From Hydrogenophilales bacterium (GTDB lineage Bacteria > Pseudomonadota > Gammaproteobacteria > Burkholderiales > Thiobacillaceae), in contig JAHFRD010000001.1 in NCBI GenBank assembly GCA_023258975.1, forward strand, positions 409,571 through 473,570: DNA of 64,000 nt, written 5' to 3'. The position numbers and the translations under genes were made by a program. The first letter of the stretch is position 1; every line of letters starts with the position of its first letter. The notes under the pieces are model-generated. The model was not told the DNA's origin, did no database searches, and saw only the letters and a list, made by a program, of their open reading frames with translations. Shown here piece after piece: positions 4,717 through 16,429 of the stretch.

Positions 4717-4763
4717 GTTCAGTCAAGCACTACATGGCTAGCTTTGTTAGCAATAATTTGCTT

Positions 4764-5276
4764 ATGAGAAAAGACGCAAGAATGATCCTGGCCGAGAATC
4801 TGTCTGCGCTCATGGCAAAGTCAGCCAACGCACGCTCGCAAAATGCGCTTTCCCGTGCGACCAGAGGCAATGTTGGCCAGACCACTATTGGAAATATTCT
4901 CAATTTGCGCAACAAGACGACGAGCCTAGAGAGCATTGAATACCTTGCCGATGCATTCCATGTATCGGTAGGAGAACTACTCTCAGACAACCTCGGAAAG
5001 CCAGAAACCGCACACAGGTCCGCACCCACGCCCGCCCGTGCCGATCCCGACCTGACCGATACCACGCGGCAGGTGATGGATCGTCTGCGCCTGCTGGAGT
5101 CCGCCGGCCTGGCATCGCCCGAGCTATGGCAAGCCGTCGAGTCAGTCATCACCCTGGCCATGGGCAGATCCACCGTGGCGCACGTCCTTGAGCGCGATAC
5201 CGCGGCCCTGACGTCAACCGGCGACTTCGTCGCCCAGCTCCAGACAAACACCCCTCAGGAGAAAGCGGCGGACTGA
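4764..5276 (+). CDS. XRE-family repressor (CI/HipB-like)
   Basis: A 170-residue DNA-binding regulator. The N-terminal part is a Cro/C1-type HTH: ILAENLSALMAKSANARSQN, then GQTTIGNILNLRNKTTSLES and EYLADAFHVSVGELL. A linker and a helical C-terminus (QVMDRLRLLESAGL) follow. There is no recognisable S24 peptidase domain, so self-cleavage after DNA damage is not expected. ATG 4764 is preferred; ATG 4734 also exists. Neither has a Shine-Dalgarno, so the message may be leaderless, as for lambda cI. A HipA-like kinase gene follows 33 bases later, so the protein may double as a HipB-like antitoxin. It probably binds the palindromes at 4701, 9871 and 9913. Confidence 0.75.
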   Translation: MRKDARMILAENLSALMAKSANARSQNALSRATRGNVGQTTIGNILNLRNKTTSLESIEYLADAFHVSVGELLSDNLGKPETAHRSAPTPARADPDLTDTTRQVMDRLRLLESAGLASPELWQAVESVITLAMGRSTVAHVLERDTAALTSTGDFVAQLQTNTPQEKAAD

Positions 5277-5309: not shown

Positions 5310-6029
5310 ATGCAATTGAGAACAGGTCAGATCATCCCCGGCGCGGAAACGCCGGTTGGGGAGGGCATCAACCGACCCGTCCGGACCACCATCCGGGTGG
5401 ATGAAGGCATCCACGCCGCGGTCATCAAACGCATTCCCCAGAGCGCCGTCCTGGTGGAGTGCTTCTGTGCGCTGCTCCTGCGCGGGTGGGGATTGCCCGT
5501 CCCGGAACCCATCTTGGTCACGGAAGGGGATAACCTGGTATTCGCCAGCATCGACGCCGGCTATCCCAACCTCAAGCAACGCCTAGGCTGGCGCGACAAT
5601 CTGCCCGAGGCCCAGGCCGAGCAATTGCGCCGCATCGGCGCCGCCATCATCTGCGCGTGGCAAGATGCGCCCAAGGCCCTGATGGCGGACGAAGCCATCG
5701 CCAACGCCGACCGCAACCTCGGAAACTTCCTCTGGGACGGCGGTGAGCACGCCTATATCGACCACGAGCGATCCATGGGACTGATCCCCCACACCACCAA
5801 CCTGATGGCAGTCTTCGCCGCCCTGGCCGGCAAGACCGTGGACATGGAAACCGGCGCCGTCGCCGCCGCCTTGTCCGCGGACCGTGGCATGCCCGCCAGC
5901 ATCGAAAATCCGGAGGGGATTGATTTTTCTCCACTGGTGGCATACGTTGAGACACGTTTGCCGACCCTGGCAACCAGGGTGTTGACGCGATTTCCAAAAC
6001 CTCATGATCTCCTGACCGGATTGCCCTGA
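5310..6029 (+). CDS. HipA-like kinase (HipA_2 type)
   Basis: A 239-residue protein with a compact HipA-type kinase core. AVIKR around K40 is a candidate ATP-binding lysine. The catalytic-loop equivalent is NADRNLGN at about 132-139, and a metal-binding IDHE at about 150-153 replaces DFG. Length and motif spacing fit the short HipA_2 family rather than full-length HipA of about 440 residues. HipA kinases phosphorylate translation factors such as glutamyl-tRNA synthetase and cause growth arrest; the target here is unknown. The gene follows an XRE gene, as in hipBA, and its stop overlaps the ATG of the next gene (TGATG). No Shine-Dalgarno is obvious. Confidence 0.7.
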   Translation: MQLRTGQIIPGAETPVGEGINRPVRTTIRVDEGIHAAVIKRIPQSAVLVECFCALLLRGWGLPVPEPILVTEGDNLVFASIDAGYPNLKQRLGWRDNLPEAQAEQLRRIGAAIICAWQDAPKALMADEAIANADRNLGNFLWDGGEHAYIDHERSMGLIPHTTNLMAVFAALAGKTVDMETGAVAAALSADRGMPASIENPEGIDFSPLVAYVETRLPTLATRVLTRFPKPHDLLTGLP

Positions 6030-6850
6030 TGAACCTAAACACCTACTGGCGTCCCATCTTCTGGGAACCTGTTTCCGGGACGGGAGAACGCCTGATGGTG
6101 GGAGTCGTGCTGGACCGGGAAGACATCGTCAGCGCCCATCGCGTCATCCGCGATGACGTGCTCGACTGCCTCTATGGAAAATCGTCCAAGGGTGCCCGAA
6201 CCCTGATCGACACCGGATTGGCTACCCTCAAGACCCTGGCGGAATCCACTTCATTGCAACAGGACCTCCCCGCCGTATTTGGCCTGGAACCCGGCCCCCT
6301 GCGCCACACGGAATCCAGGAGCCTGGGCGAAGCGCTACGCACTGCCGCCCTGCTCTACTCCAGCCTGTCCAACCTGGACAAGCTGGACGATCTGGAGGAA
6401 ACCGACGCCCCTACCCAGGAAGAATCCAACCGCCGCTTCACCACCGAGTTGCGCGACATGGTCGTGACCCGGCGACCGGAACTCGAATCCTACTTCGGAC
6501 GCTCCGCCGTGCTCATCGAGGGGGGTGAGCCTACCCGATTCGGATTCTGCTCTACCCGGTCCATACTGCATTTCGGCGTGCTCTCCCCCGTGCGCCAATC
6601 TTCCAGCGTGCGCGATGCCCGAGCCCGGCTCTGGGAACTCAATGGCGCCCGCCAACTGGCCCACCTCAGCCTGGCGGCCTTGATCTTCGCCACACCGCGC
6701 CTAGACGACCCCACCCTATCGGGAAAACAGATCATCGCCCTGCGCCGCAACCTCTCCGAGATCGAACGCGAAGCGGACGGCCATAACATGCGCTTCATCC
6801 CGGTGAACAGCATCGATGAAGGCGCCGACCGGGTTATCGAGCATGCCTGA
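6029..6850 (+). CDS. uncharacterised partner of the HipA-like kinase
   Basis: A 273-residue soluble protein I cannot firmly assign. The N-terminus, with a GERLMVGVVLDREDI segment, faintly recalls DUF3037 proteins, which are often encoded beside HipA_2 kinases, but it is about twice their length. The rest looks largely helical. Its ATG overlaps the kinase stop, so stoichiometric co-production is likely. Eight bases beyond its stop lies a perfect bidirectional terminator, which closes a three-gene operon. Confidence 0.6.
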   Translation: MNLNTYWRPIFWEPVSGTGERLMVGVVLDREDIVSAHRVIRDDVLDCLYGKSSKGARTLIDTGLATLKTLAESTSLQQDLPAVFGLEPGPLRHTESRSLGEALRTAALLYSSLSNLDKLDDLEETDAPTQEESNRRFTTELRDMVVTRRPELESYFGRSAVLIEGGEPTRFGFCSTRSILHFGVLSPVRQSSSVRDARARLWELNGARQLAHLSLAALIFATPRLDDPTLSGKQIIALRRNLSEIEREADGHNMRFIPVNSIDEGADRVIEHA

Positions 6851-6906: not shown

Positions 6907-7239
6907 TCAGGCTGCCCTTCGCAAGTTCTGCTCGGACTCTTCTTCGCCGTGTTCCTTCGCATATTCTGCAGCCCAATCGCGCAGAATCTGCTTTTTCTCA
7001 CTATCGGCAAAGCGCTTCAAAACCTGGCGCATCAAGGTCTGGTAACCAAGGCCGTTCAGCTTGGCGATCAGCTTGAAATCCTCGATCAGCGACTTGTGCA
7101 AGCGGATCGAAATGGGCTGCAATTCCAGGGCCTCGTCCAGGGCGTCCTCATCCATCTGCGAGGCGACGGCAAAGGCCTCATCCGCACCCAGTGCACGGCT
7201 ATCCCAGGCCTCATCAGTTTCCATGATCTTGTCGGACAT
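6907..7239 (-). CDS. CopG/BrnA-like antitoxin
   Basis: A 110-residue protein. The acidic N-terminus (DEDALDEALELQ) probably covers the toxin, and a C-terminal segment PISIRLHKSLIEDFKLIAKL followed by LGYQTLMRQVLKRF reads as a ribbon-helix-helix DNA-binding unit. Start ATG 7239 is preferred over 7251 because GGAG lies seven bases before it. It follows the toxin gene by 17 bases. It should neutralise the toxin and repress the shared promoter near 7568. The toxin-first order is as in brnTA. Confidence 0.75.
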   Translation of the reverse strand: MSDKIMETDEAWDSRALGADEAFAVASQMDEDALDEALELQPISIRLHKSLIEDFKLIAKLNGLGYQTLMRQVLKRFADSEKKQILRDWAAEYAKEHGEEESEQNLRRAA

Positions 7240-7256
7240 GGCGTTCTCCATTCTGG

Positions 7257-7541
7257 TTAACTGAGATTGGCGAAAATGCGCAATTCATCAGCGTTAGGGT
7301 CGAAGGCGGACTTGATGATGATGTCACCCCCCAAAGGGATGAACACCACCTTCAGCTTCCGACCGAAGTCAGTCTCAGCAATAAACCATCGAGTAATCGG
7401 GTTCGTCAGATGTTCCTCGCGCAGATCAGCCACATAACTTCCCGTTCGATTGGAGAAACACTGCAGGATCTCGTCTTCCGTCACGGGTGGCGTCTTGTTC
7501 GCCAACTTGGTGCGCACGTTCTGCGAGATCCTTAGCGTCAT
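7257..7541 (-). CDS. RelE/BrnT-like toxin
   Basis: A 94-residue protein (start MTLRISQNVRTKLANKTPPV; later TRWFIAETDFGRKLKVVFIP). Relatives are commonly, and probably wrongly, annotated as 'ADP-ribosyl-(dinitrogen reductase) hydrolase' and occur beside CopG-like antitoxins. The small alpha/beta fold and pairing suggest an mRNA-cleaving toxin. The ATG at 7541 has an excellent GGAGGC Shine-Dalgarno; the open frame to 7649 has none. Confidence 0.7.
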   Translation of the reverse strand: MTLRISQNVRTKLANKTPPVTEDEILQCFSNRTGSYVADLREEHLTNPITRWFIAETDFGRKLKVVFIPLGGDIIIKSAFDPNADELRIFANLS

Positions 7542-7567
7542 ACTAGCCTCCGGAAACAAGTCTGTAT

Positions 7568-7674: not shown

Positions 7675-8160
7675 CTACTTCACGAAACGGGTGAACAGGC
7701 TTTCCAGTTCGCCGTGAACTTCCAGTCCCGCGTGGGCGATGGAGAGCATCCTGGGGTCATTCGCCTCCGCCTTGATCCGGTCGGCAGTTTGAAATGTGCC
7801 GCCGGTCAACTGATCCATCAATCCCTTGAGCGTCCTGTCCAAGTTATCGGATTTCATCGCGAGGTATCGGAAACTGAGGTGGTCCAGCGCATTGAGCAGG
7901 CGGTTGAGCCGCACCAGCATTTCGGCTTCCTTCTTGCGGCCCGCGTCGACATCCATTTGGTAATAGGCCTGAGCCAGGTCGACCAGGGCGTCGAGATCGC
8001 GCTGCAGCTTGTCCAGCAGGCTGCGCAGCTCCTTGCGGGATTCCCGCGCGTTGTGCGTATTGTTAGTGTAAATCCAGCCGCCGATCACCAGCACCCAGGT
8101 GAGCACCTGGGCAGCGGCGGGCCAGAAACCACTCGCCGCCTCAGTGCTTGCGGCGGGCAT
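7675..8160 (-). CDS. single-pass membrane protein, unknown
   Basis: A 161-residue protein with one N-terminal transmembrane segment (about residues 14-31, around VLTWVLVIGGWIYTNN). A long, helical cytoplasmic part of probable coiled-coil character follows (KELRSLLDKLQRDLDALVDL). No family is assigned. It is the last gene of a leftward four-gene operon and overlaps the upstream DUF4325 gene by 20 bases. It may anchor the ATPase/STAS pair at the membrane or act as its effector; this is inference from the operon. Confidence 0.65.
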   Translation of the reverse strand: MPAASTEAASGFWPAAAQVLTWVLVIGGWIYTNNTHNARESRKELRSLLDKLQRDLDALVDLAQAYYQMDVDAGRKKEAEMLVRLNRLLNALDHLSFRYLAMKSDNLDRTLKGLMDQLTGGTFQTADRIKAEANDPRMLSIAHAGLEVHGELESLFTRFVK

Positions 8161-8470
8161 CTTCCTCTTCAATGTATTGCCAGGCGCGGTCCACGAACAG
8201 GCGAACCGAGCATTTCAGGGAGAGCTGGCCGCGCAACTGTTTGGCGCTTAGGCCATATGCCCGTACCAGGCCGGCAAAGGCTTCGTCGAGAAATGAGGAG
8301 CCGTAGCCCAGCGCGCCGTCCATGTCGACTTCCACGCGGGCGTTTCCCTGCAGGGCGGGATAGAGCAGGTCTTCACGGAAGTGTTCGCCGGAAAACGGGC
8401 CGTCCGTGCGGTAACGTCCCGCAGGGTGGGGCGAGAAATCTTTGGCGATCGAAATCATCTTGGTGTCCAT
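8141..8470 (-). CDS. STAS-like DUF4325 protein
   Basis: A 109-residue protein matching the DUF4325 pattern: an N-terminal SPHPAGRYRTDGPFSGEHFR, then the STAS-like core ARVEVDMDGALGYGSSFLDE and AFAGLVR. STAS folds act as phosphorylatable switches in partner-switching systems (SpoIIAA type). DUF4325 proteins are often encoded beside GHKL ATPases, as here, where the ATPase stop is eight bases upstream. ATG 8470 is chosen; 8458 is also possible, and neither has a strong Shine-Dalgarno. Confidence 0.7.
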   Translation of the reverse strand: MDTKMISIAKDFSPHPAGRYRTDGPFSGEHFREDLLYPALQGNARVEVDMDGALGYGSSFLDEAFAGLVRAYGLSAKQLRGQLSLKCSVRLFVDRAWQYIEEEDARRKH

Positions 8471-8477
8471 TTCTTCA

Positions 8478-9503
8478 TCATGTCCGCTCGGGTTCCGCAA
8501 TGGACAGCGTCCATTGAATCAGGGTTCCTGGCAACGCGGGCGCCATGACCACGGTGCGCTCCGTCTGCGTGTCCACATCATAGCTATAAGTGCCGCGGTT
8601 ACTGTGGATTATCATGCCACCAATTCGGCTGGTACGCACGAACTCCAGCATCTCGGGCAGGCCCCGTCCGCGATACGGAAGTTTGGTGCTGCTACGGCGT
8701 CCTGCCGCTGCCTCGATGAGTTTCTTGTCGCGGGTCTTGGGGCGCCAATGTAGCAAGTAGTCTTTCAGCTCGGGCTTTCGCTTCAGGGATTCGGCAATGC
8801 CGATGCCCAGGTCGCAAATGGTGACGGTGAGCAGGTCATCCAGGCGTTGGGCGAACATCCACCAGGGTCTGGGTGCCACTTCCGTCGCGGGAATATCCGG
8901 GTAGGCATGCTGAATGGTGTTGGTGACGGCTTCGGTCAGGCTGCTATAGAGGCCCATTCTCACCTGCCCGTCAAAGCTGTTCGTGTATTCCGCCATCAAT
9001 TCGGCAAAACCCGCCGCATCCCCGGTCTTCCCCTTCACGAAATGCCAATGGCGCACATTTTCCGCCGTGATGGCTTGCCTCGGGCTCAAGCCCATCCATT
9101 GCAAGAGGCCGATGTGCTGGAAGAGCTGCTCGACAGTGTTGTCTTCCGGGTAATTGCAGGTGATCTGGCCTGGGTAATCCGTGAGCGCCTGATCGAGATT
9201 GGCAGTGAAGTAGAGCGTGCCACAAGGGTGGAGACGCTTGCTTTGGGTGAAATCGAGATGCACGCGGTGGCCTTGTGCCAGACCTTCACGCAAGGCATGA
9301 ACCAGTTTGAAGAGGGCTAGACGGGCGGCGGCATCCCCCAGGGTGAAATGCTCCGGTGTGCTGAGTCTGATGTTCCTGACGCGCCTGGGCGTGTGATCGC
9401 AACGGGCCTTCCGGCAGCGCGGGCGCTGATGACAGGCTCGCCGGCGGAGGGCTATGTTGTGGCGGACGATGCGTTCGCGTTGCCAGTGTCTTTGGCGTTT
9501 CAT
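8478..9503 (-). CDS. STAS-GHKL ATPase (histidine-kinase-like ATP-binding)
   Basis: A 341-residue protein. The basic N-terminus leads to a STAS-like segment (VHLDFTQSKRLHPCGTLYF, about 81-99). A GHKL ATP-binding domain has an N-box EAVTNTIQHAY (E191, N195, H199), G1 box CDLGIGI (about 230-236) and G2 box GRGL (about 279-282). There is no dimerisation/phosphoacceptor histidine domain and no membrane segment, so it resembles SpoIIAB/RsbW-type kinases or ATPases rather than a sensor kinase. The ATG at 9503 overlaps the upstream stop (ATGA). With the DUF4325 and membrane proteins it looks like a partner-switching module of unknown output. Confidence 0.75.
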   Translation of the reverse strand: MKRQRHWQRERIVRHNIALRRRACHQRPRCRKARCDHTPRRVRNIRLSTPEHFTLGDAAARLALFKLVHALREGLAQGHRVHLDFTQSKRLHPCGTLYFTANLDQALTDYPGQITCNYPEDNTVEQLFQHIGLLQWMGLSPRQAITAENVRHWHFVKGKTGDAAGFAELMAEYTNSFDGQVRMGLYSSLTEAVTNTIQHAYPDIPATEVAPRPWWMFAQRLDDLLTVTICDLGIGIAESLKRKPELKDYLLHWRPKTRDKKLIEAAAGRRSSTKLPYRGRGLPEMLEFVRTSRIGGMIIHSNRGTYSYDVDTQTERTVVMAPALPGTLIQWTLSIAEPERT

Positions 9504-9802
9504 GGCGCAGGTATGGCGGTCGAGCAGCCGCTGGCTTCCACCCATTCCGCGATGTCCTGGACCAGGTCTGCCGCGTGTTTCCGCACACCCAGGGCCATAT
9601 CCTGGGTGCGGAACATCCATTCCAGGCGGTCGATAACTTTATCCAGCTTGAGCAGAGCGGACTCCGAGGTGGCACCCAGGCCGGGGCGGAGGATGAACAG
9701 GCCGATCCGGTCTTTCTGGAAGCGCCGGCGGCGGCGGCATTCACCGTCCGCATTGACGTACCGAATCTCAATCAGCCGATTACCCGGACTGAAGCTTGGC
9801 AT
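9500..9802 (-). CDS. first gene of the ATPase/STAS operon, unknown
   Basis: A 100-residue protein with no family I know. It is a small alpha/beta-looking protein with a basic stretch (ECRRRRRFQKDR) and a helical end (VRKHAADLVQDIAEWVEASG). It is coupled to the ATPase by an ATGA overlap, and the operon promoter must lie in 9803-9870, next to the repressor operators. It may be the sensor or target of the module. Confidence 0.55.
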   Translation of the reverse strand: MPSFSPGNRLIEIRYVNADGECRRRRRFQKDRIGLFILRPGLGATSESALLKLDKVIDRLEWMFRTQDMALGVRKHAADLVQDIAEWVEASGCSTAIPAP

Positions 9803-9870
9803 CAGCGACCTCCCCTACTTAAACGGCTAACAGCGTGTGGATTAGGAGGATGCATTGTCACTTCATAAAT

Positions 9871-9886
9871 TAGCACCGTAGTGCTT
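9871..9886. promoter_or_regulatory. palindromic operator, copy 2
   Basis: TAGCACCGTAGTGCTT matches the palindrome at 4701 at 13 of 16 positions. It lies in the divergent region between the leftward ATPase/STAS operon and the rightward recombination operon, 42 bases from copy 3. Confidence 0.65.
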
Positions 9887-9912
9887 GCTTCGTGCTTATT
9901 TCACTGCTAACC

Positions 9913-9928
9913 TAGCATCACGTTGCTA
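9913..9928. promoter_or_regulatory. palindromic operator, copy 3
   Basis: TAGCATCACGTTGCTA, with the same TAGCA/TGCTA half-sites and 6-base spacer as the site at 4701. It ends 16 bases before the ATG at 9945, well placed to block the rightward promoter. Confidence 0.7.
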
Positions 9929-9944
9929 GTTTACTTAGGTAGCC

Positions 9945-12826: not shown

Positions 12827-14554
12827 ATGAACGCACCCACCGCCCCCGCAGCCCTCGCCACGCCGGAAACCCCCGTCCGGCAGGTGACCATCGCCCTGGC
12901 CGACCTCTACCCCAGCCCCACCAACCCGCGCCGGACCTTCCCCGAGGGGCCGCTCGCCGAACTGGCCGACACCATCCGTCGTCACGGCGTTCTGCAGCCC
13001 ATCCTGGTGCGGCCGTCTCCGGTGATGCCTGGCCAATACGAGATTGTCGCCGGCGAGCGCCGCTACCGGGCCAGCATCCAGGCCGGCCTGGCGGAAATCC
13101 CCGCCACCGTCCGCGACCTCACGGATACCGATGTCCTGGAAATCCAGGTGCTGGAAAATCTTCAGCGCGAGGACGTCCACCCACTGGAAGAGGCGGAGGG
13201 CTACCAGGTGCTCATGCTGCGCACCGCCTACACCGTCGAGGACGTGGCGGCCAAACTGGGGCGCAGCAAGGCCTACATCTACGCCCGCCTCAAGCTGTGC
13301 GCCATCACGGGCGAGGCGCGGCAGGCCTTCCTGGACGGCAAGCTGTCGGCCAGTGTCGCCCTGCTCATCGCCCGCATCCCGGTACCGGCCCTGCAGCAGC
13401 AGGCGACCCGTGAGGTGCTGGAGGGTTACGCCGGCCCGATGTCGGCCCGTCAGGCGTCCGAACACCTCCAGCGCAAATACATGCTCCGGCTGGCCGAGGC
13501 GCCGTTCCCGCGCGGCGATGCCAAGCTGCTTGCCGATGCGCCGAAATGCAAGGACTGCCCCAAGCGCACCGGCCACGCCCCGGAGTTGTGGCCGGACGTG
13601 CAGAGTGCAGACGTGTGCACGGACCCGGAATGCTACGGCGCCAAGCGCACCGCCTGGCGCGATCGCCAGGCGGAGGTCGCCGCCGCCGCCGGCAAGAAAG
13701 TCGTGATCGGTAAGGCCGCCGAGAAAATTGCCCCTTACGGATTTTCCGATTACAACCAGCACCTGTCCGGCGGCCTGGCCTATCTCGATGCCGTCGCCAT
13801 CGGCGCGCTGGCGGACAAAAAAGGCCGCGTGCCCACCTGGCGCCAGTTGCTGGCTGAATCCTGCCCAGAGGCCACCACGGTCATCGAGGATACCCGCCGC
13901 GGTACCCTGCACGAGGCGGCGCCGGTCGCGGACCTGCGCCAGGCGGCCATGAATGCCGGCATCAAGGTGGCCAGCACCCAGCGTGGCGACCCCAGCACCC
14001 AGATGGAGCGAGAGCGCGAGAAGGTGGCCCGTGACCAGACCGCTCGGCGCCGGGCGCTGGTGGAACAGATCGTCCAGGCCTCCCAGGGCATGCATCTCAG
14101 CCTCGACGAGCTGCGCAGCGTTGCCGCCGTCGCCTTCGATCACCACGACTTCGAGGCGCAGAAACTCGCCTGTCGGATCTGGGGCCTCGAAGGCAAGATC
14201 GAGCGCAGCCACTGCGCCGACCTGGTGGCCGCCATCCACCAGATGGACGGGGCGGACATCCACCGCGTCCTGCGCCTCATCACCCACGTCAGCCGCATCC
14301 ATGTCAACAGCTATTCGAGCGAGCCGACGAAATTGCCCACGGACCTGGTGGATGCCTGCATCGAGTGGGGGATCGATACGGATCTCGCCAGCGCCGGTAG
14401 CGGCAAGAAGGCGCCGTCTGGATCCGGGGTCGCCTATCGCCACCCTGACCCTGCTTCCGGCCTGAGCTGGTCCGGGCGTGGCAAACAGCCGGCCTGGGTG
14501 GTGGCGTGGCTGAAGGAGGGCGGCAGCCTGGATGATATGCGGGTGGTGAAATGA
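12827..14554 (+). CDS. phage ParB/Spo0J-like nuclease/CTPase-domain protein
   Basis: A 575-residue protein. The N-terminal ParB domain (about 18-110) shows SPTNPRRTF, then HGVLQPILVRP and the core GERRYRAS (the ParB GERRxRA motif). ENLQREDVHPLEEAEGYQ follows, then a KorB/ParB-type HTH (AKLGRSKAYIYARLKLC). A Cys cluster (CKDCPKR...CTDPEC, about 242-270) could bind zinc. No ParA partner or parS site is visible nearby, so a role in transcription or DNA processing is as likely as partition. Proteins of this design occur in lambdoid phages of beta/gammaproteobacteria near the integrase. Confidence 0.85.
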   Translation: MNAPTAPAALATPETPVRQVTIALADLYPSPTNPRRTFPEGPLAELADTIRRHGVLQPILVRPSPVMPGQYEIVAGERRYRASIQAGLAEIPATVRDLTDTDVLEIQVLENLQREDVHPLEEAEGYQVLMLRTAYTVEDVAAKLGRSKAYIYARLKLCAITGEARQAFLDGKLSASVALLIARIPVPALQQQATREVLEGYAGPMSARQASEHLQRKYMLRLAEAPFPRGDAKLLADAPKCKDCPKRTGHAPELWPDVQSADVCTDPECYGAKRTAWRDRQAEVAAAAGKKVVIGKAAEKIAPYGFSDYNQHLSGGLAYLDAVAIGALADKKGRVPTWRQLLAESCPEATTVIEDTRRGTLHEAAPVADLRQAAMNAGIKVASTQRGDPSTQMEREREKVARDQTARRRALVEQIVQASQGMHLSLDELRSVAAVAFDHHDFEAQKLACRIWGLEGKIERSHCADLVAAIHQMDGADIHRVLRLITHVSRIHVNSYSSEPTKLPTDLVDACIEWGIDTDLASAGSGKKAPSGSGVAYRHPDPASGLSWSGRGKQPAWVVAWLKEGGSLDDMRVVK

Positions 14555-15207: not shown

Positions 15208-15557
15208 ACATCGCCGGCGCGGCAGAATGGCTCAAGTGCGACCCTGAAACGGTGCGCGCGATGGCTGCGGCGGGCGAATTACCGGCCGCCAAGGTGGGGC
15301 GATCCTGGGTCTTCGTGGACGTTGATCTGATTGACTGGCTCCGTTCACAATATGGCGCATCATGCCGCTCTACAAAGACCCGAAATCAGGCTTCTGGTAC
15401 GCCTCGATCAGCATCCCGGAAAAACCCAGAATTCGCCGCAGCACTGGGACTGCCGACAAAGCGCAGGCCCAGCGCATCCACGACGAATGGCGCGCAGAAG
15501 CCTGGCGAGATCGTCCATCTGGCCGTGCGTGGCAAGACGCCGCCGCCGCCTGGCTGA
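15195..15557 (+). CDS. excisionase-type HTH protein
   Basis: A 120-residue protein. The N-terminal MerR/excisionase-like HTH (AAEWLKCDPETVRAMAAAGE, then LPAAKVGRSWVF and VDLIDWLRSQY) resembles HTH_17 proteins encoded just upstream of integrases. The remaining 60 residues are basic, low-complexity and overlap the integrase gene by 196 bases in another frame. It may direct excision (Xis-like). ATG 15195 is chosen over 15153, which would lie deep in the ASCH gene. Confidence 0.65.
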   Translation: MQTLDIAGAAEWLKCDPETVRAMAAAGELPAAKVGRSWVFVDVDLIDWLRSQYGASCRSTKTRNQASGTPRSASRKNPEFAAALGLPTKRRPSASTTNGAQKPGEIVHLAVRGKTPPPPG

Positions 15558-16429
15558 CCGCCGGCGAGCGCGGCGACTCGGATCGCTACCTGATCCGCGC
15601 CTATACCGAGTCCCTGGGCAACCCTGTCCTGGCCGACCTGACTACAGATACCCTCACCCAGGCCCTGGGGCTGAAATCTGCCGGAACCTGGAACCGCTAC
15701 CGCAACACCATCCTCGCCATCCTGCACCACGCCCAGGCTCTCGGCTGGATGGAAAGAGTGCCCACCCTCCCCGCCAGGAAAACCCCGGCAGGGCGTACGC
15801 GCTGGCTCACCCCACAAGAATGGTCCAGGCTCGAAGCGCAATTGCCCGAGCATCTGCTGGCGCCGGCGCGGTTCGCCCTGGCCACCGGGATACGCCGCTC
15901 CAATCTCCTGGGCCTGCAATGGTCCGAGGTCGATCTGGCACGCAAGGTCATGTGGATCCACCCGGACGAAGCCAAGGCGCGCAAGGCCATCGGCATCCCG
16001 CTGTCAGAGGCTGCCGTAGCCATCCTGCGCGGCCAAATCGGCCTGCACCACACCCACGTATTCACCTACGAATTCCGGGCATTCGGGAAGGCCGATCGCA
16101 AACCCATGCGCGAGATCGGAGAAGCCTACCCGCGAGCCGTGAAGCGCGCCGGCCTGACCGGCGTCAACTGGCACACCCTGCGCCACACCTGGGCGTCCTG
16201 GCACGTCATGAATGGCACGCCGCTTGAGGTACTGCAAAAGCTGGGGGGATGGAACAGCCTGCAAATGGTGCTGCGCTATGCACACCTGGCGCCGGAATAT
16301 CTGGCGAGCTGGGCGGGGAATTCTGATCGGCCGCCGATTGACTCTGACAATAACTCTGACAGCGACATACGGTCTGACACGGTTATAGGCGGTTTTGTAA
16401 AAGGGAAAGGCCACTCGAAAGCGGCCTAA
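15362..16429 (+). CDS. int: tyrosine-type site-specific integrase
   Basis: A 355-residue phage integrase. The N-terminal arm-binding region (MPLYKDPKSGFWYASISIPE) is followed by a core-binding domain and a catalytic domain. Catalytic residues are R178 (TGIRRSNLLGL), H271 and R274 (HTLRHTW), W297 (GGWNS) and the nucleophile Y306 (RYAHLAPEYL). The gene ends 14 bases from the 3' end of tRNA-Val(CAC) and is oriented towards it, as expected for integration into a tRNA 3' end. It should catalyse integration and, with the HTH protein, excision. Confidence 0.93.
   Translation: MPLYKDPKSGFWYASISIPEKPRIRRSTGTADKAQAQRIHDEWRAEAWRDRPSGRAWQDAAAAWLTAGERGDSDRYLIRAYTESLGNPVLADLTTDTLTQALGLKSAGTWNRYRNTILAILHHAQALGWMERVPTLPARKTPAGRTRWLTPQEWSRLEAQLPEHLLAPARFALATGIRRSNLLGLQWSEVDLARKVMWIHPDEAKARKAIGIPLSEAAVAILRGQIGLHHTHVFTYEFRAFGKADRKPMREIGEAYPRAVKRAGLTGVNWHTLRHTWASWHVMNGTPLEVLQKLGGWNSLQMVLRYAHLAPEYLASWAGNSDRPPIDSDNNSDSDIRSDTVIGGFVKGKGHSKAA

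Follow-up and report, generated by a model that had tools for sequence, protein, structure and literature searches.

A 64,000-nucleotide stretch of a Hydrogenophilales bacterium genome (contig JAHFRD010000001.1, positions 409,571 to 473,570; hereafter the window) contains, at window positions 7675-9802, four consecutive open reading frames (ORFs) on the minus strand, which the original prediction had described as a tightly packed four-gene module in the accessory zone of a prophage. All four ORFs are confirmed, with a codon-position guanine-cytosine content that is of coding type and alike in ORF1 to ORF4, and the tight packing holds as well, the gene ends overlapping or lying a few bases apart. 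ORF1 (9500-9802) encodes 100 amino acids, and its stop has 4 nt in common with the start of ORF2 (8478-9503; ATG at 9503, stop at 8478-8480), which encodes a GHKL kinase-like protein of 341 residues. Following a gap of 7 nt, ORF3 (8141-8470, likely start at the ATG at 8470) encodes a STAS-like DUF4325 protein of ~109 residues. ORF3 overlaps by 20-32 nt with ORF4, a gene for a single-pass membrane protein that ends with the stop at 7675 and begins either at 8160 (161 residues) or at a TTG at 8172 (165 residues).

The last three of these genes recur together. Among genome contigs, alignment scans with the STAS-like protein recovered 294 relatives, and among viral contigs 276; the best 80 of each set, ranked by similarity to the window STAS-like protein, were taken as 160 loci (145 distinct). 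A kinase gene lies within 400 bp upstream of the STAS-like gene in 154/160 loci, within 160 bp in all but three, and a homologue of the membrane protein is adjacent downstream in 154/160. Both partners are present in 148 loci and no locus lacks both. Among the six loci without a kinase, L104, L116, L121, L139, and L145 reach a contig end and L013 has no kinase beside the STAS-like gene; among the six without a membrane homologue, L066, L073, and L081 reach a contig end and L032, L038, and L147 carry an unmatched ORF. The final membrane-protein profile, which was trained on the 160 loci, joins 149 of 156 third proteins, and for one of the seven outside it (L004) an incorrect reading frame had been used. 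A nine-sequence profile trained on none of these loci finds 114 of the 160, all 114 of them adjacent. Alignment A5 comprises the window sequence and 79 of 97 dereplicated sequences, alignment A6 the window sequence and 94 of 115. The tree distances of kinase and membrane protein are correlated (Spearman 0.59 over 104 loci, permutation maximum 0.16), and those of kinase and STAS-like protein (0.29) and of STAS-like and membrane protein (0.23) also lie beyond permutation, in a test that ignores the shared ancestry of the hosts. Based on this conservation of sequence and order, the kinase, STAS-like, and membrane genes are a real, conserved module. The original prediction of four members, and of their co-occurrence, thus stands for this core trio, which is anything but rarely found together, and fails for ORF1 as described below.

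Among the hosts identified by name are alpha-, beta-, and gammaproteobacteria, Desulfo-lineages, Phycisphaerae, Cytophagales, and Pontiella. The three genes are annotated in this order on, among others, Marinobacter phage AS1, a Helicobacter prophage, and plasmids of Leptospira, Vibrio, Acinetobacter, and Pasteurella. The third proteins of the Helicobacter prophage and the Leptospira plasmids are not matched by the final membrane profile, and one of the Acinetobacter plasmids carries a short annotated kinase, placed after an insertion sequence element. Among 61 genomes, including 22 congeners, a full-length match to the window kinase occurs in its own genome only, and a second genome holds a fragment of 33 residues. 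In that genome, protein search gives one match to the kinase, and profile search one remote relative.

ORF2 had been predicted to be a STAS-GHKL ATPase, and the GHKL half of that assignment is well founded, the STAS half probable. The kinase matches HATPase_c_2 at E=5.4e-6, slightly short of the Pfam cut-off, and phrog_3364 at E=7e-44; across 80 related kinases, HATPase_c_2 is found in 39 at E<=0.01. The AlphaFold2 model (mean predicted local distance difference test score, pLDDT, of 91) has a basic N-terminal helix (residues 6-25), a probable STAS domain (~44-136), and a GHKL domain (~148-334) that contains the N box (E191, N195, H199), G1 (D231, G233, I236), and G2 (G279, G281) motifs. In the 80-kinase alignment E191, N195, W214, D231, G233, G279, and G281 are invariant, and H199 and I236 are nearly so. 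Searched against the PDB, a nine-sequence kinase profile matches SpoIIAB (E=7e-5) and RsbW (E=0.003); a profile of 80 sequences matches RsbW at 0.001 and SpoIIAB at 0.02. The top Foldseek matches of the model, listed without aligned ranges, are LvrC of Leptospira (3.6e-6) and SpoIIAB (4e-6), followed by CheA and, more weakly, RsbW. Taken together, the profile and structure searches support ORF2 as a GHKL kinase of the SpoIIAB/RsbW type. The N-terminal domain is probably a STAS domain: residues 44-136 have an alpha/beta pattern in the model and align with the corresponding domain of a Deinococcus kinase (L189), which is itself above the Pfam STAS cut-off. A basic N-terminal stretch is general in the family: over 141 kinases (start codons were picked by script), residues 1-40 carry a median net charge of +11, with +8 or more in 73%, as compared to +0.7 per 40 residues in the rest of the protein. 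Such a charge could, by inference only, point to a nucleic-acid or phosphate ligand.

The identity of ORF3 as a STAS-like DUF4325 protein, also predicted, is borne out by a match to PF14213 at E=8.6e-12, above the Pfam cut-off. Ser58 and Ser59 (numbered from the ATG at 8470) form a pair within the motif GSSF, in the region that holds the phosphoacceptor of SpoIIAA-type proteins. The phosphoacceptor of SpoIIAA is Ser58 (PMC13373217, EMBO J, June 2026), and its counterpart in ORF3 is uncertain between the first and the second serine. In the window sequence and nine others that were found via the kinase, and hence not picked by motif, the second serine is kept in 10/10. The genome and viral scan patterns demanded Ser-[F/Y] (and the genome scan also [S/R] before it), so that the second serine and the Phe are present in 145/145 scanned sequences by construction. 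Among the seven membrane-type loci of a separate survey that used DUF4325 only, the second serine is kept in 7/7 and the first in 6/7. We predict that the phosphoacceptor would be either one of the two adjacent serines. Elsewhere in the same genome, DUF4325 forms the end of longer proteins at L199 (contig C29) and L222 (contig C22), one of which has a helix-turn-helix (HTH)-like start and one of which is also matched by the kinase profile.

ORF4 has no family above the cut-off in Pfam or NCBIfam (best Pfam match DUF4279, E=0.007). Its AlphaFold2 model (pLDDT 93.4) is all-helical, with helices at residues 17-71, 79-102, 109-123, and 140-163, and consists of a single long N-terminal transmembrane helix that continues into a four-helix bundle. 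PIN, HTH, and sigma-factor identities were considered for ORF4 and rejected, given the lack of a family match and the all-helical model with a transmembrane segment. Counts of transmembrane segments among the third proteins vary with the scale used, from 88/156 to 133/156 (as compared to 346/1313 control ORFs), and 146 are counted at a laxer cut-off. In ORF4 the transmembrane segment is followed by the motif RExRKExR, and an excess of Lys and Arg lies C-terminal of the segment in 145/146 family members; a second hydrophobic segment is present in 6/146. Because of this charge excess, the family is predicted to be N-out/C-in, and the bundle should be cytoplasmic, within reach of the STAS-like protein.

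ORF1 is a neighbour and not a member of the module, as judged from the searches made with its sequence. None of the 169 related loci encodes a homologue (best E=1.4), and this lack of a counterpart is the reason why we rejected ORF1 as a fourth member. A same-strand ORF is found close 5' of the kinase in 44 of the 132 related loci with room for one, and 0/44 match ORF1. Further searches gave no homologue in plasmids at E<=1, none in viral contigs (in a search reaching close relatives only), and weak matches to phage records at E of 0.2 or worse. In 200 genomes of the order there are two weak matches besides the own genome (E=1e-4 and 0.006). The better of these (L223) is to the C-terminal end of a protein whose neighbouring gene looks, by eye, like a HipA-type gene. 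By eye, too, the L223 pair resembles a gene pair at 5310-6850 of the window; the weak resemblance of ORF1 is to the second member of the L223 pair. ORF1 and the protein encoded at 6029-6850 both have weak matches to phrog_14695, at opposite ends.

The predicted prophage accessory zone is evident from the genes around the module, which include a primase/helicase (121-2535), a repressor-like HTH gene (4734-5273), a ParB-like gene (12827-14551), and an integrase (15362-16426). The intergenic stretch 9803-9944, which separates the module from a divergent DUF7673 gene, is where a promoter would be expected, and it may have a regulatory role. An inverted repeat, imperfect, lies within it at 9908-9933, and there is no match to a sigma-70-type promoter. 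The PADLOC models give no match for ORF1 to ORF3, and ORF4 matches capH only (E=0.012). Two other gene pairs lie nearby. A HipA-like gene on the plus strand (5310-6029, a weak HipA_2 match below the cut-off) is followed by a phrog_21150 gene (6029-6850), and beside the module a minus-strand pair (6907-7553), possibly a toxin-antitoxin pair, joins a CopG/BrnA-like antitoxin gene (6907-7251; match below the Pfam cut-off) to the small phrog_18652 gene at 7257-7553.

The best precedent for the trio is VapKSC, an anti-phage system that consists of the STAS-GHKL kinase VapK, the STAS antitoxin VapS, and the PIN toxin VapC (PMC13373217). VapS inhibits VapC, and a phosphomimic of VapS loses both inhibition and binding of the toxin; protection by the operon was shown for at least one phage, and the activity of VapK itself could not be assayed there (PMC13373217). 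Two of our loci, L185 and the Deinococcus plasmid locus L189, have a VapKSC-type layout with the same gene order as the window. The window-family kinase profile matches their kinases (E=1e-14 for L185, 5e-14 for L189), the STAS profile matches their STAS proteins (4e-5 and 3e-9, respectively), these STAS proteins are DUF4325 above the Pfam cut-off, and the third genes are PIN by Pfam. The likeness extends to intact N, G1, and G2 motifs in the kinase and to a Ser/Thr in the same motif of the STAS protein, encoded directly downstream. In STAS proteins of the L185/L189 type, the first serine position is kept as Ser/Thr, whereas the second is Ala or Pro. The window module further differs in the basic N-terminal stretch of its kinase and in its third protein, a single-pass membrane helical bundle with no PIN match.

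The gene behind the kinase-STAS pair is therefore not fixed, a point that was broadened by the DUF4325-only survey, in which 398 genomes gave 29 positives with 33 places, and 30 loci were read. Seven of these have a membrane-type third gene, two a PIN-like one (L204 above and L202 below the Pfam cut-off), and one another hydrophobic third protein (L217). Ten are longer proteins ending in DUF4325 (five with an HTH-like start by eye, five matched by the kinase profile), and ten are without a recognized third gene, incomplete, or without a STAS-profile match. Hydrophobic third proteins outside the membrane profile, judged by eye, stand behind a related kinase-STAS pair at L183 (1423-1986), L217 (943-1395), and L192 (4338-4742), and these are perhaps further effector types. 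The slot behind the kinase-STAS pair thus takes different genes, and no other argument speaks as strongly for the membrane protein as the module's output.

Our current hypothesis, which we hold to be somewhat probable, is that the module is a prophage-borne switch of kinase, STAS antitoxin, and membrane effector that would follow the same principle as VapKSC. In the resting state, the membrane protein would be kept inactive by the DUF4325 protein, bound to its cytoplasmic helical bundle. The kinase would sense a signal of infection or stress, possibly a nucleic acid via its conserved basic N-terminal helix, and would phosphorylate the DUF4325 protein at one or other of its paired serines, whereupon the DUF4325 protein would let go. 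The freed membrane protein would act at the inner membrane and arrest or kill the cell, and the lysogenic population would thereby be protected from other phages. The phosphorylation, the inhibition and release, the toxicity, the trigger, and the phage protection are all steps that we infer; the antitoxin and release steps have their precedent in VapKSC, and the phosphorylation step in CapK/CapS, in which CapK phosphorylates CapS when supplied with single-stranded DNA (ssDNA) (PMC13373217). The role in phage exclusion or host arrest that had been suggested for the module is plausible.

Several observations weigh against this hypothesis. The fold search with ORF4 has no significant match (best E=0.03). 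The Pfam STAS family is found in only 3/80 kinases and STAS_2 in 1/80, and a profile comparison of the kinase N-terminal domain with DUF4325 is not significant. The first serine of the STAS-like protein is kept in only 8/10 sequences of the set not picked by motif (one Thr, one Arg), and in 141/145 of the larger set. At two loci, L013 (4004-4797) and Vibrio parahaemolyticus L190 (5016-5738), a STAS-like gene stands with a small hydrophobic partner and no kinase; the partner belongs to the membrane family at L013 and is unmatched at L190, where its hydrophobic nature was judged by eye. This suggests that the STAS-like gene and a hydrophobic partner can exist without the kinase, and that other regulation is possible. 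F54 of Escherichia VapK, the aromatic residue implicated in its response to ssDNA, appears to correspond to R90 of the window kinase, with the mapping made by numbering and one alignment with W53 of L189, without the Escherichia sequence. The R90 position is Lys or Arg in 42/80 kinases and is not generally aromatic. The window kinase family thus seems not to keep the aromatic residue, and a VapK-like ssDNA trigger is not supported. Finally, known defence genes are few among the neighbour families listed (the best 25 of 73, of 122, of 67, and of 107, and a fifth list of 20 families with one member each, the only one for which the count is firm). For each locus, the closest ORF on either side was taken as its neighbour, and a part of these ORFs are spurious; 110/112 such proteins from genome loci and 111/127 from viral loci were scanned, the viral ones left out being mostly near-duplicates.

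The direction of signaling could also be the reverse of the one proposed. The membrane protein would then be the input and would inform the kinase and its STAS-like partner of a disturbance of the membrane or envelope, such as one caused by an incoming phage. The output would lie elsewhere, in another protein or in transcription. The weak fold matches of ORF4 include the sensor bundles of QseE, Tar, LytS, and methyl-accepting chemotaxis proteins (as well as FAT and vinculin domains), and the membrane protein is poorly conserved, with a mean column identity of 15% as compared to 24% for the kinase. However, every fold match has E>0.001, and sensor bundles of the QseE, Tar, LytS, and chemotaxis type are periplasmic, whereas the bundle is predicted to be cytoplasmic in the 145 members noted above. 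Moreover, a PIN toxin occupies the same slot in the VapKSC-type loci and no constant further gene was observed upstream of the kinase, so that we consider a sensor role for the membrane protein unlikely.

Two other alternatives concern what the module does for the prophage. The lambda proteins RexA and RexB are a cytosolic sensor and a membrane protein, in a cI-rexAB arrangement. By analogy, the module could be expressed in the lysogen from the repressor operon and block only incoming phages via a membrane event, with no antitoxin-type inhibition, such that phosphorylation of the STAS-like protein would activate the membrane protein rather than release it. In line with this, a CI/S24-type repressor is present in 20/65 prophage-contig loci with room for one, as compared to 3/67 genome loci, and a CI-type repressor lies directly upstream on the same strand in 13/65 (11 distinct by STAS sequence) versus 1/67; in Marinobacter phage AS1 the HTH, kinase, STAS-like, and membrane genes all run in one direction. 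Co-expression of the module and the lysogenic repressor would be in keeping with superinfection exclusion or with abortive infection. The window differs, as its own repressor-like gene is not directly upstream of the module and lies ~2.4 kb past the module's end on the opposite (plus) strand. The likeness to Rex, a membrane protein and in some loci an adjoining CI repressor gene, is one of description, without sequence comparison, and to our knowledge Rex has neither a kinase nor a STAS protein. The loss of toxin inhibition and binding by the VapS phosphomimic favors release (PMC13373217), and we regard a Rex-like mode of action as distinctly improbable. The reading to which we give the least credence is that the switch tunes the lysis-lysogeny decision or the induction of its own prophage and has no part in defence. 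The 276 relatives that one scan found in viral contigs would fit this, as would the repressor and integrase genes among the nearest neighbours listed; portal-protein genes are also among the neighbours. Yet the module is also present on the Leptospira, Vibrio, and Acinetobacter plasmids, with no phage structural gene named in the 4 kb flanks, and it is rare in annotated phage records (of 50,697, two are matched by the STAS-like protein and eight by the kinase). This plasmid carriage and rarity suggest that the module is cargo.

Compared to the known partner switches, the module resembles SpoIIAB/SpoIIAA and RsbW/RsbV in the sequence and fold of its GHKL kinase and in the STAS-like partner; it differs in the extra N-terminal domain of the kinase and in having a membrane protein and no sigma factor. 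The predicted make-up of a partner switch without a sigma factor accordingly holds, with no sigma-factor match in ten neighbourhood proteins scanned. With CapK/CapS the module shares the pair of a STAS-GHKL kinase and a STAS substrate. The kinase of that pair carries an N-terminal HTH, and its substrate a C-terminal winged HTH (PMC13373217), whereas ORF2 and ORF3 have no HTH family match in Pfam at E<=1 and ORF3 is short. By membership, the module is not VapKSC either, as it has no PIN nuclease. The original prediction that no characterized system has this gene set stands for the membrane variant, of which we found no description in the literature on DUF4325, STAS-GHKL defence, and VapKSC (supplementary datasets and subscription papers lie outside this coverage), and not for the kinase-STAS pair, which VapKSC and CapK/CapS use in the same kind with other outputs (PMC13373217). 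It is a more tentative proposal, and one we would not call probable, that the trio is an undescribed, widespread prophage immune module in which a novel membrane effector, single-pass and N-out/C-in, would be held at its cytosolic four-helix bundle by a DUF4325 antitoxin and released on phosphorylation by the serine kinase, with a trigger unlike the ssDNA-stacking residue of VapK. If this is true, DUF4325 would gain a function and prophages a common, testable candidate immune system. Kinase-STAS switches would then be a general chassis for the outputs of mobile elements, be it an RNase, a transcription repressor, or, as at the locus described here, a membrane protein.

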